From Spirogloea muscicola (lineage: Eukaryota > Streptophyta > Zygnematophyceae > Spirogloeales > Spirogloeaceae), in contig WELB01000067.1 of NCBI GenBank assembly GCA_009602725.1, positions 69,559-111,923 on the forward strand: a stretch of DNA of 42,365 nucleotides, in the 5' to 3' direction. How positions within the stretch are numbered: position 1 is the first letter of the stretch; every line of letters starts with the position of its first letter. A program made the position numbers and the translations under genes. A model generated the notes under the pieces. It did no database searches, was not told the origin of the DNA, and saw only the letters and a program-made list of their open reading frames with translations. Of the stretch, positions 694 through 11,502 are shown piece after piece.

Positions 694-2749
694 ATGGAGG
701 GCTCGCCAGAGCGCACGGCGCGCAGCAGCAGCAACCTCTTCAACTTCCACGCCGCGCCAAAGCTGCCGACGACCAGCCCACAAGTTGCGGACGTGGTGCC
801 CGCCGCCGCCGGCGACGTCAACGTGGACGCCGAGCTCGACAAGGAGGAGCCGGCACCGAGGAAGCGGCGCCGGCTGGGCCCGGCAGCACAGACTCCGGGC
901 GCTGCTGGCGAGGAGAGAGCCGGCCATGGCCTCGCCTTGGAGGCGGCTCAGAAGCAGCGGGCTCAGCCCTCGCATGATGAGGAGAAGCAGTCGTTGCCGC
1001 CGCCGCTCGCCGGCTCGGAGGGGCAGAGCACGGCAAAGGCCGCAGCAGCTGCGGCTCCTGGAGCCACGCCGACGGCGAGTGCCGAGGCCACCGCGGCGAG
1101 CACTCCGGCGGTGGTGGGCGCGCCGCCGCCACGTTCGCAGCTGTCGCTGTCGGTGCTTGCGGCGGGTGCTGACGCTCTGCAGACGCCCCCGAGGCGGAGC
1201 GGACGGGAGCTCGGCCGCCTCCTCGAGCAGAATCGGGCCTTCAAAGCAGCCGATGTCGGCAGCGTGCAGCCAGCCTCGTCGCCATCGCCAGGCCGGCGGG
1301 CCGCTGCCCGGGCGGTGGCCAGCGGCGCAGGCGGTGACGGCTGGAGCAGCAGCGAGGAGCGCAAGCTGCGGGAGGCGGTCCTGGCGCTTGACCCCACATT
1401 GCCGGGCTTCTGGCGCGACGTCGCTGCCAAGGTTGGTCAATGCTGCCGGGGTTAGGCCCCTCCATAACGATCCGTAATGACCATGAATCTTGTCAAAACA
1501 CCGCAAGTAAAGTCACTTATGATGCTCGTGCTGAGTGAAGCTTGTTCATTTCATTGTGCAGGTAGAGGGCCGGACGCCCAAGGAGTGCTTCGACAAGGTC
1601 ACGGCCGAGAGCCCAGAGTTCAAGCGCACGCACTCGCTCGCGTGGCGCACCATACTGGAGTCCTCCAGGCAGGCAGGCAGCAATGGTGGCCTCGTGGAGG
1701 CGGCTGCGGCCGCCTCCGTCGAGAACGAGTCGTTGTCGCCATTGTCGTCACAGCCACCGCAGCAGGCAGCAGCTGTGCCCGTCAGCAGGTTCGCACCGAT
1801 GCCACACCCCGCTGCGATCGCTGGTTGCGTGGAGGAGAGGCCGTCTGGAGGAGGCCTCATGCGGCGCAGCTTGTAAACAACTACAATGGGGTCACTGAGT
1901 CCTTTGTCCAGAACAGACTGTCCTACCTGAACAGACTGTCCTACCTGATGGGAATGCTCTTTCTTCACTGTCTACTCGTGTTAATTGCTGTGCAATCTAT
2001 CACTGCGCAGGGCTGTGCAGCAGCTCCTGCAGGCCCGTCAGCAGGCGCAAGCGGCTGAGACCTTCAGCACATTCCACTTTGACGCGCTGCATGTCACACA
2101 GCTCGCGAGCGTGGCGAGCCCATCAGTGCGGAGCCCACCTCGGCAAACGGCACGCAAGAGCGGTGGCGGGCGAGGCTCCAATTTCCAGCTTGCTGCTCAG
2201 CAACGTGTCACACAGCTTGCAAGCGTGGCAAGCCCATCTCGGCAAACGGCACGCAAGAGCGGCGGCAAGCGAGGCTCCAATTTTCAGCTCGCTGCGCAGC
2301 AACATGTCACACAGCTCGCCAGCGTGGCGAGCCCACCTCGGCAAACGGCGCGCAAGAGCGGCGGCGGGCGAGGCTCCACTTTCCAGCTCGCTGCGCAGCA
2401 ACATGTCACGCAGCTTGCGAGCCCACCAGGGAGGAGCCCACCTCCGCAAACGGCACGCAAGAGCGGTGGCGGGCGAGGCTCCGATTTCCAGCTCGCTGCG
2501 CAGCAACATGTCACACAGCCTGCAAGCGTGGCGAGCCCATCAGTGAGGAGCCCAACTCCGCAAACGGCACGCAAGAGCGGCGGCGGGCGAGGCTCCAATT
2601 TCCAGCTGGCTGCCCAGCAACGTCGGCCAGTGGCGGTCGGACGGCTCCGTGAGCGGCGCGGCGGAGCACGGCAGGCCCTGGAGGCTGCTGCTGCCGCCAT
2701 CCTGGAGGACGCTAATGCTGCCAGTGGCGATGCTCTGATGGATGACTGA
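694..2749 (+). CDS. SANT/Myb-domain protein with five H3-tail-like repeats (KNL2/Mis18BP1-like candidate)
   Basis: Three exons (694-1431, 1562-1872, 2011-2749) join in phase into 595 residues. The start is the first ATG in frame. Residues 1-216 are low-complexity Ala/Pro/Ser-rich with a basic nuclear-localisation-like run PRKRRRL at 55-61. A SANT/Myb-like domain begins at W217 (WSSSEERKLREAV), continues through GFWRDVAAK, and is split by intron 1 from VEGRTPKECFDKV; it ends near 275. The EGRTPKEC/FW pattern resembles the SANT domain of Mis18BP1/KNL2 centromere-licensing proteins, but I see no SANTA domain, so that assignment is tentative. Residues 377-553 are five repeats of 33-38 residues carrying QTARKSGG(G/K)RGS-x-FQLA, strikingly like the histone H3 tail. 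The last 42 residues are Arg/Ala-rich and end DALMDD. A nuclear chromatin role is inferred; other Myb/SANT families remain possible. Confidence 0.75.
1915..1950 (+). repeat. 18-bp tandem duplication in intron 2
   Basis: The block acagactgtcctacctga occurs twice head to tail inside intron 2 of the SANT-protein gene. It is non-coding and looks like a recent slippage event. Confidence 0.8.
2090..2620 (+). repeat. Five in-frame coding repeats encoding histone-H3-tail-like units
   Basis: Units start at 2090, 2204, 2303, 2402 and 2507 with lengths 114, 99, 99, 105 and 114 bp (38, 33, 33, 35, 38 residues). Each encodes a linker VTQ-x-AS with one or more SP dipeptides, then the core QTARKS, a Gly/Arg stretch and FQLAAQQ. 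The six residues QTARKS are identical in all five units although the DNA has a synonymous difference (gcg versus gca in unit 3), while linkers vary in length and sequence. H3-like lysines fall at residues 399, 432, 465, 500 and 538. Confidence 0.95.
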
Positions 2750-3617: not shown

Positions 3618-6600
3618 CTACCTCCTGCCTACAAATTGCATCGACTCGTCAACGGCCTCCCTGCCTCCCTGCCTGCCACCGGCGCCCTTTTTGCCAGCGC
3701 CGCCGAAGTAGTACTCATCGTCGTCGTCGCCATCATCGTCATCGTGCCCATCATAGTCAACGATATTGCAAAGCATCACGCCGCGCGGATCGGTGTCAGC
3801 ATCGTTACCGTCAGCCCCCCGTTGGCGGGCGGCCGGCCTGTCTGCGCCGCGCTCATCCTCCTCAGCCGCAGTCGTTGCCCCGAGCACGGCCGCGTCGGCT
3901 CCCTCGGCGGGCGACGTCGCCCAGTCCCCACTGCCGGCCTTGGCCAGTGCGCCTGCGGGGGACGAGGCATTCACGGGGCTGCCATTCTGGTCGCTGCCAC
4001 TGGCGCCGGCAATTGCCTGCGACAGCGATGCTACCATCCGAGTCGTGATCTCCTGGCTCACGGGCGCTGCCGCCTCTGGCTTGCTCGCAAACTCCGCGAC
4101 CGCGCGCAAGGCGGCGTTCCGGCCGTCGAGCCGCTGCATCCCACGGCTCGGAGGTCGGCCGCTAGCATTGGGCACTGGCACAGGCGTTGGCAGGAGGTCC
4201 ATGGCCTCGCCATCGGTGCACTCGCCAGCGTGCACTGTTGCGCCCGCGTTGGCGTCGAATGTCTGCTTCCGCTTGGCCTGCAGCCCAGATGCAAAGATGA
4301 GATTAAGGACTCAGGAATGTCATGTAGGATTGGGTGTTTGTAGGTCAGAGAGTATCTTGGTGGCAACTGCAAGTAAGGTTTGCATATACCACCGCCAGAC
4401 CGCAAGACAGCGGGTCTGCCCTCTTGCGACTCTTGACATATCTTTCTATGGACATGGGTGCTCTAAGTCCAGCTCTGGCCTGTGAGCAATGTACTTAACA
4501 AAATGGCAATCTGATCATGCAAAGACCATGACACAGAGCAAGGGCAGAAGTCTAAGAATGTGTCGCAGGTAGGAGCAGGACAATGCATGGAGGCACAGCA
4601 ATGGCAAAATTGGACCCTCGAAGCTCAGAGCTTGAGGTGTTCATCACGAAACCAGGTTTCAGGATCTGGAGTGTAAGGTGAGGGCCGCCTGTGCACCTGG
4701 AAGGGCGCAAGCCACGTGGCGTTTGCCCCGTCTTTCTTCTCCAGCACCTCGCGCGCTCGCAGCTCCATGCTTTGCCGCATCATGCGCCGCACAAAAGTCA
4801 CGTCGTCCGACCGCACACCCAGGCCTTTGAGCAGGATTGACCCCAGCCGCAGGCTCGTCTGGATATAACAGCGAGGGAGCAAGCCAAAGTATTACATAAC
4901 TTTCACATGAGAAGATGGACAGTGGCATACATCTATAACAGAAAAGGTTGATGATAAGGTTAAGGCTGTGATGCAGCTGAGCATCTATTAGATGCAAGTA
5001 AGATGTCATAGCTGTCTCTGCCCAGGCACAATCACCTCGGTGTTCTCGAGCACCGCGTCAGTGGCACCGGCAACCTGCAGCTCAAGCAGATGATGGAGGT
5101 CCTGTGCCCTCGCATAGATGGGCACCTGGCATTTGCAGCAGCCCATGAGCGCAAACAGCTGCATCTTGCTGCTCGAAGACTCCATCCACATACATTGTAA
5201 TGCAGAGAGTCTAACATAAGATACGTCCCGACATAGCCGACAGCTTCTTCCACTAGCGCTGATTAGTGGATAATCACATCACCCCCAACATATTGTTCAA
5301 CAAGAGAAGGTTGGTTCTCTCATTGTGTTGACTGAGAGTCAGGCTGACTTGGGAAGCCGAGCTCACCCCTGGCCAGGCAAGGCGGATGCGCTCAACCGAC
5401 TGGACCGACTTCTGCTTGCCCGTGTACATGACCATCACCGCCTTGGGCCGCGTGATGCCCGCCGTCTGCAGCACCATTGGCCGGGATCCATCGCCATAGA
5501 GCACGGGGAAGCCAAGCTTCCTTGCGGCCTGCTCAGCCAAAGCTTGATTTGCACTTAGTCCCAATCTACTCAGGACTAACCAGGCCACACAAGGCAGGGG
5601 CGTGCCCAGCAGGCGAGGCTGGTCAGCATGAGGAGACATCGCAAGATCAAGAAATTGTTGCACAAGGAAGGTCAAGATTGTTGATGTGAAGTGGATGCTG
5701 CAGCAAGGAGTGACTCTATCTCACTTAAGGACGCCACCATTCAGCTGCAAAAACCTCTGGCAATGTCCTCTGTGCACGTGTGGGAATGCCACTAGCGAAG
5801 CCATGCACATTGATGCACATGCGACAGTGCGGGTCTGCATCGGAGCACAGACCTTAACTCTGCTGGGGTCGAGGTCAAAGGCGACATATGGCCAGCCAGC
5901 ACCAACGACCCCCCCACCTGCTGCAAGCGGCGTGGCCAGGAAATTGGCCAGAACCTGCACATGCGTCCAAGAGGTCATCGACCAAAATTAAACATGCTGA
6001 AAAATTTGTGAATGCAGAGTATAAATCTATTGTTGCGCTGAGTGTAAAAGCCCAGTTTTCCGCGTGACATACCCAGCAATGTATGAATCATCAGGTATGC
6101 AAGCCTGTGCCTCAGACAAAATACGAAGGTTAACTAGATAACCGCGAGCTCCTGTCAGACACTGGACCGACAGGCACCAAGGGAGGCGTCCTCTGCGGAG
6201 CAGGCCGACCTGCGCCATCTGCCCGAAGCCAATGATGACTACCGGGTCCGCCGCGTCATACGTGTGGCCATCACTATCAACAAGTGCCTGCACGCCACCC
6301 TGGAAACCGCCAGATCCACTAGGCCACTCGGCCAGTCAGGACAACATGAACCAAGAAGAGTTGCTTCAACCTGTATCAGCAAGGACAAGCCATTGAGCTA
6401 GTCTACGCTGAATGGGTTAGGGTTTAGAATTTGGGGTTCCCTAAACAATTGACCCTATTCGTAGCTGCAAGATTAAGCAACAAAAAGTATCCTGTTCTTG
6501 ACGCAGTTCCTGACGCAGCACAAGGTTTCCGGACATGACACTGAAAGTTGTGCAAGTTGGGTTTCAACCCGTTCCTCAGGCATGAACCCTCAGGCATCTG

Positions 6601-10729: not shown

Positions 10730-11502
10730 NNNNNNNNNNNNNNNNNNNNNNNNNNNNNNNNNNNNNNNNNNNNNNNNNNNNNNNNNNNNNNNNNNNNNNN
10801 NNNNNNNNNNNNNNNNNNNNNNNNNNNNNNNNNNNNNNNNNNNNNNNNNNNNNNNNNNNNNNNNNNNNNNNNNNNNNNNNNNNNNNNNNNNNNNNNNNNN
10901 NNNNNNNNNNNNNNNNNNNNNNNNNNNNNNNNNNNNNNNNNNNNNNNNNNNNNNNNNNNNNNNNNNNNNNNNNNNNNNNNNNNNNNNNNNNNNNNNNNNN
11001 NNNNNNNNNNNNNNNNNNNNNNNNNNNNNNNNNNNNNNNNNNNNNNNNNNNNNNNNNNNNNNNNNNNNNNNNNNNNNNNNNNNNNNNNNNNNNNNNNNNN
11101 NNNNNNNNNNNNNNNNNNNNNNNNNNNNNNNNNNNNNNNNNNNNNNNNNNNNNNNNNNNNNNNNNNNNNNNNNNNNNNNNNNNNNNNNNNNNNNNNNNNN
11201 NNNNNNNNNNNNNNNNNNNNNNNNNNNNNNNNNNNNNNNNNNNNNNNNNNNNNNNNNNNNNNNNNNNNNNNNNNNNNNNNNNNNNNNNNNNNNNNNNNNN
11301 NNNNNNNNNNNNNNNNNNNNNNNNNNNNNNNNNNNNNNNNNNNNNNNNNNNNNNNNNNNNNNNNNNNNNNNNNNNNNNNNNNNNNNNNNNNNNNNNNNNN
11401 NNNNNNNNNNNNNNNNNNNNNNNNNNNNNNNNNNNNNNNNNNNNNNNNNNNNNNNNNNNNNNNNNNNNNNNNNNNNNNNNNNNNNNNNNNNNNNNNNNNN
11501 NN
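10730..11502. other. Assembly gap (773 N)
   Basis: Unsequenced bases. The left edge is a G-rich run and the right edge falls inside a sequence repeated at 28024, so the gap probably reflects a collapsed or unresolvable repeat plus a G-rich tract. Confidence 1.

Follow-up and report, generated by a model that had tools for sequence, protein, structure and literature searches.

From the succession of a CENPC-k motif and a SANT domain in its predicted product, we conclude that the gene at the start of the window is a KNL2/M18BP1-type factor for centromere licensing, i.e., for CENH3 loading. The window is a stretch of 42,365 nucleotides, C67:69559-111923 of a 153-Mb genome. The last exon of the gene carries a tandem array of five units that resemble the tail of histone H3. 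These repeats are real, and a positively charged, switchable chromatin anchor is a more likely explanation for them than a faithful copy of H3. The first-pass annotation of this DNA had described the repeats and a SANT domain, and had not identified the gene as KNL2/M18BP1.

One spliced gene occupies the first 2,749 bases of the window, on the plus strand; only its 3′ part, with five exons, is visible. Upstream of the window the assembly is N for at least 8,059 bases, and the 5′ end of the gene falls there. All exon joints are GT-AG and one open frame runs throughout. The spliced protein has 606 aa; residue numbers in the modelled protein are counted from Met694. The first visible exon (1-85), whose 5′ end lies outside the window within the N stretch, has an open frame and a GT donor after base 85 and encodes ...LAATYGLKLSRSG, the first half of the CENPC-k motif. 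The second exon (285-343), the first codon of which is completed across the splice joint by the preceding exon, encodes the other half of the motif (RPLVPPLAYWRNQTLARAK) and has a protein match at C67:69836-69901. A telomere-like repeat of the CCCTAAA type lies at 123-166, within the intron that splits the motif; CCCTAAA repeats are of the plant type and would point to a green alga as the source. The third exon (673-1431) encodes a Pro/Ala-rich linker followed by the first part of the SANT/Myb domain (WSSSEE...GFWRDVAAK, 1342-1431, matched by both PF00249 and 1wgx), and the fourth (1562-1788) encodes the remainder of that domain (VEGRTPKECFDKVTAESPEFK) and a further linker. The last exon (2011-2749), with splice sites common to three copies of the gene, contains the repeat array and a C-terminal tail, and the stop codon is at 2747-2749.

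Two more diverged copies of the gene are present besides the one on C67, on contigs C115 and C121, and comparison of the three led us to reject an error in the gene model. In alignments to C67 that start at position 1296, identity between copies is 0.91-0.96 in exons and 0.78-0.83 in introns; for the exon at 1562-1788 alone, it is 0.91-0.93 as against 0.78-0.83 in two introns. The splice sites agree across the three copies, and the substitutions peak at the third codon position, which accounts for 26/43 (C67/C115) and 30/46 (C67/C121) of those in the non-repeat coding part from 1296. As this part changes mostly at third positions, the gene appears to be under purifying selection. A contig end truncates the C115 copy and a stretch of N lies before the C121 copy, so that the CENPC-k exons are visible in C67 only. 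The introns of the KNL2 copies are approximately 20% apart. Like KNL2, a spliced H3 gene is also found in three diverged copies (C186, C342 and C270), and the triplicate KNL2 and H3 genes together suggest a triplicated or three-subgenome assembly. A histone H3 gene at C276:154349-154606 is cut by a contig end. Elsewhere in the window, an open frame on the minus strand at 5274-5675 has a TrkA_N domain and, by its look, is perhaps part of a KEA-type potassium antiporter, while another minus-strand frame at 3618-4235 is without a Pfam match. A run of N at 10730-11502 is either an assembly gap or a withheld stretch.

The CENPC-k motif KLSRSGRPLVPPLAYW is encoded by the upstream exons and spliced across a GT-AG intron. 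A search of PDB sequences with the spliced peptide LAATYGLKLSRSGRPLVPPLAYWRNQTLARAKDGGILDIMEGSP gave two matches at E up to 10, one to MIF2 (E 0.18, 15.4 bits) and the other to 7y7i_K (E 1.2), which is named ‘Myb-like domain-containing protein’ and which we take to be chicken KNL2. Each of these matches is weak alone, and both appear to be to CENPC-motif proteins. Eleven of the 16 residues are identical to the plant consensus printed in the available part of PMC9210943, and the Arg and Trp which that part gives as required for centromere targeting in Arabidopsis are both present. The SANT domain of the first-pass annotation was borne out by its best match among PDB sequences, 1wgx (KIAA1903; E 8.3e-8). 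Mis18-binding protein 1 in 9f5w (E 3.6e-5) has the identical aligned stretch, and scores similar to that of 9f5w were obtained by other SANT/Myb proteins (RADIALIS, E 3.1e-5; DNAJC2, E 4.8e-5). The Pfam matches were of the Myb type only, with PF00249 (E 1.4e-4, 22.4 bits) falling below its curated cut-off of 24.4. Red and green algae have been scanned (PMC9210943, in its available part), and a SANT domain was not detected in plant KNL2 variants according to the accessible text of PMC11879092, whereas the algal protein has both SANT and the array. The presence of CENPC-k and SANT together is thus notable in itself.

CENP-C was considered as the identity of the protein and rejected, given that the 606-aa product has no cupin (PF11699), its C-terminus being formed by the array and a short tail. 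The genome likewise had no match to this cupin, in a search that detected 4 of 14 controls, all of them below cut-off. SANTA (PF09133) was also without a match in the genome, but no control was detected by that search and the upstream sequence of the gene is N. A genome query for a separate CENH3 returned only H3 genes and one for CAP-G2 gave no match; none of these four negatives (cupin, SANTA, CENH3, CAP-G2) is proof of absence. Five matches were to either Mis18 or Yippee. There were no orthologues in viral contigs or prokaryote genome contigs, as expected of a eukaryotic gene.

The five tandem units reported at 2090-2620 are present as described, on the plus strand, in what is now seen to be the last exon of a spliced gene. 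They comprise unit 1 (38 aa, HVTQLASVASPSVRSPPRQTARKSGGGRGSNFQLAAQQ, 2090-2203), unit 2 (33 aa, a GGK variant, 2204-2302), unit 3 (33 aa, 2303-2401), unit 4 (35 aa, 2402-2506) and unit 5 (38 aa, 2507-2620), and are followed by the C-terminal tail (42 aa, 2621-2746), which was delimited in the three-copy alignment and contains the helix-prone LRERRGGARQALEAAAAAILEDA, a helix predicted with low confidence. QTARKS starts at 2144, 2243, 2342, 2447 and 2561 in a single open frame. Its lysines are residues 371, 404, 437, 472 and 510 from Met694; those originally listed as Lys 399, 432, 465, 500 and 538 are the same residues, with 28 added to each number. The other copies have fewer units, with four in C115 and two in C121 against the five of C67. 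A search of the genome for the unit, in which QTARKS was not required, returned exactly the 11 known places; the H3 genes were not among the 11 first-look candidates of this search, and other weak look-alikes are thus uncounted. As a check against motif-biased choice of units, RGSxF, AQQ and VTQ were counted, and each equalled the QTARKS count in every copy.

The array of C67 has a net charge of +22 over 177 aa, compared with 0 both for the 348 modelled residues ahead of it, counted from Met694, and for the 42 behind it. The arrays of the other two copies have net charges of +18 and +9. A structure model of the last exon had a mean pLDDT of 41.7, and its strand pattern was set aside, the model being too poor to show disorder. 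Units differ on average by 0.089 when compared within a copy and by 0.085 when compared between copies. The similarity of these values indicates that the array arose at about the time when the copies split, unless units have been exchanged by gene conversion. Recent duplication is therefore not favoured as the full cause of the QTARKS invariance, since synonymous sites vary and QTARKS has no replacement changes; the array did not arise trivially by such duplication.

When aligned without gaps to H3 residues 5-21, four of the five units have the 11/17 identities first described, and unit 2 has 10/17 because its GGG is GGK. H3 positions 1-4 have no counterpart in the units. One unit was searched against 177,635 distinct PDB sequences at E up to 10 and gave 17 matches, all 17 of them histone H3; the best (E 0.32, 15.1 bits) is about as strong as that of CENPC-k to MIF2. 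Only 3 of 20,000 within-unit shuffles reached the observed score against the H3 tail. Among 1,773 segments drawn from all six reading frames of the window, a set that left out the array's own frame, none reached it (maximum 41 vs 52), and the fitted p is ∼6e-5 (5.7e-5) per 38-aa segment. The probability of 11/17 identities at the exact register is ∼4-5e-9 per position. By these comparisons, the units have an ARK(S/T) core whose flanks resemble H3 more closely than shuffled sequence does. They share one founder and hence do not represent five independent H3 matches.

QTARKS, which had been called invariant in the five units, is kept in all 11 units over the three copies, its codons having undergone 3 synonymous changes and no replacement change (neutral probability 0.011-0.027). 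The other 14 codons of the 20-codon core have 8 synonymous and 9 replacement changes, a contrast short of significance (Fisher p 0.22). The 11 units share the core SPxxQTARKSxxxRGSxFxLxAQQ. Within it, the SP found four and three residues ahead of QTARKS is invariant in 11/11 units, as is RGS, and the non-H3 residues (SP, RGS, F, AQQ) are as strictly kept as the H3-like ones. Conservation does not track H3 identity: over 24 columns and 11 units, 7/11 of the H3-identical columns are invariant compared with 9/13 of the others. Selection favouring the H3-identical positions is thus not apparent in this alignment, and the comparison does not support retention of the distal QLA and Gly pair for the sake of their match to H3. 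Their retention at H3 spacing, as first described, is true of C67, where QLA is found in 5/5 units and the Gly pair in 4/5 (one Gly is missing from unit 2), but not of C115, where FQLA and the Gly pair are each found in 2/4 units. The changes in C115 are of the distal Q to K in two units and of A to S in one, with one Gly lost in two.

These figures bear on whether the likeness to H3 arose by chance. A match such as this is unlikely for one given protein, and by extrapolation from the fitted p per 38-aa segment, a few could occur by chance across a whole proteome. The array may then be a lineage-specific low-complexity expansion, the founder unit of which happened to resemble H3, with no H3-related role. 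A conservation pattern that ignores H3 identity and a unit number that varies from five to four to two agree with such an origin. However, the shuffle and segment tests weaken chance as the sole explanation, as does the low neutral probability of the QTARKS pattern, and the array sits in a protein associated with H3-variant nucleosomes, which raises the prior for an H3-related role. We regard an origin by chance as possible but rather unlikely.

Alternatively, the units may be true decoys of the H3K9 tail, with their ARK(S) lysines methylated by SUVH/G9a-type enzymes and read by chromodomains, which would give KNL2 a heterochromatin-like, multivalent platform at centromeres or next to them. 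The exclusive matching of H3 among PDB sequences and the presence of QTARKS in every unit are in line with this, and the genome has canonical H3 tails, two Pre-SET matches and chromodomain matches in at least 150 places (of 509 candidates, 150 were scored), which may include both host readers and mobile-element proteins. Known substrates of EHMT2 have in common a short motif centred on RK, but the minimal RK motif is very common, its pattern occurring in >17,000 proteins (PMC10611923, available part). Furthermore, the H3-identical columns are no better conserved than the rest, the distal G, Q and A are variable among the C115 units, and H3 positions 1-4 are not copied, all of which make a true decoy unlikely in our estimation. 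The H3-mimic interpretation of the first-pass annotation therefore retains H3 as the best match among solved structures and a chromatin protein as host, but loses H3-guided conservation. At least 150 chromodomain matches are very many for a 153-Mb genome; some lie in long open frames, and they are perhaps largely mobile-element integrases.

The invariant SP and ARKS of each unit, the charge of the array and the KNL2 literature favour a phospho-switched, multivalent DNA/nucleosome anchor that would work with CENPC-k, a reading of the sequence to which we give an even chance of being correct. We infer that the C-terminal tail of KNL2 expanded a unit of 33-38 aa into a strongly basic, probably disordered array. 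The CENPC-k motif would supply specificity for the CENH3 nucleosome and the array a multivalent, sequence-independent grip on DNA or nucleosomes, which mitotic kinases could release or set at the SP (CDK-type) and ARKS (Aurora-type, cf. H3S10) of each unit. ARKS is the context in which H3S10 is phosphorylated by Aurora B. The unit would then resemble the H3 tail through a like job, as a basic, ARKS-containing segment that contacts DNA and has phosphorylation as its switch, and would not be a copy meant for reading as H3.

As stated in the available part of PMC11879092, the anchoring of plant alphaKNL2 at centromeres requires CENPC-k for specificity along with basic DNA-binding regions, which are poorly conserved, positively charged and sequence-independent, and centromeres were likewise reached by a fusion of CENPC-k with a bacterial DNA-binding domain. 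CDK-1 phosphorylates C. elegans KNL-2 in vitro at SP/TP sites in its C-terminal part; normal chromosome condensation depends on these sites, and CENP-A loading does not (PMC8714079, available part). The accessible portions of two further sources describe control of Xenopus M18BP1 by mitotic phosphorylation in the CENP-C motif (PMC13021935) and binding of human M18BP1 to condensin II, in a phosphorylation-dependent exchange with MCPH1 (PMC13252511, a preprint). Several observations nevertheless speak against the anchor. Invariance extends beyond the basic residues to RGS, F, L and AQQ in equal measure, which a model of charge alone would not require, and QTARKS is not significantly more conserved than the remainder of the unit. 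The C121 copy is down to two units, so high valency is not essential there. The expected partners, CENH3 and the CENP-C cupin, were not found in the genome. The units could instead occupy a surface of KNL2 or of the Mis18 complex that binds the H3/CENH3 tail, as an intramolecular decoy that leaves the loading factor inactive until phosphorylated. The histone-mimicking linker of BAZ2B lowers histone binding (PMC5663869, available part); however, the corresponding nematode site is the central region of KNL-2, which was not identified in this protein, and the CENH3 query, in returning only H3 genes, left no algal CENH3 tail for comparison. We consider such self-inhibition very improbable.

Among known systems, the KNL2/M18BP1 of non-mammalian vertebrates (chicken, Xenopus) also has a CENPC motif, a SANT domain and a further C-terminal region, but the available parts of the sources on these proteins do not mention an H3-like repeat array; SANTA, in turn, is not visible in the algal protein, the upstream sequence of which is missing. 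Plant alphaKNL2 is similar to the algal protein in its plant-type CENPC-k (11/16 consensus residues) and in its basic regions elsewhere. The H3 tail and the ARK(S/T) mimics (EHMT1/2, WIZ, CDYL, LIG1) have QTARKS in common with the units, at up to 11/17 identities to H3 5-21. Unlike these, the algal units are tandem, 33-38 aa long and internal rather than N-terminal, and their non-H3 part (SP, RGS, F, AQQ) is equally conserved. The CDK-regulated C-terminal region of C. elegans KNL-2 is alike in having SP sites in the C-terminal part, and no sequence similarity is claimed. Among the matches listed for H3 mimics and KNL2/M18BP1, the titles and opening lines of abstracts describe no H3-tail repeats in KNL2.

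The joining of CENPC-k to SANT in an apparent green-lineage organism bears on the nature of the ancestral green-lineage KNL2. It is doubtful that a centromere-licensing factor carries its own H3K9/S10-like tails, and with them an H3 methyl/phospho switch on the CENH3-loading machine. If it did, KNL2 would itself undergo writing, reading and erasing as chromatin does, and would couple CENH3 loading to heterochromatin readers and to Aurora kinase; true H3 decoys would thereby provide a direct link from H3K9/S10 signalling to centromere licensing. Should the array be a phospho-switched anchor, as we favour, the poorly conserved tail of KNL2 could evolve by repeat expansion, with CENPC-k keeping the specificity.
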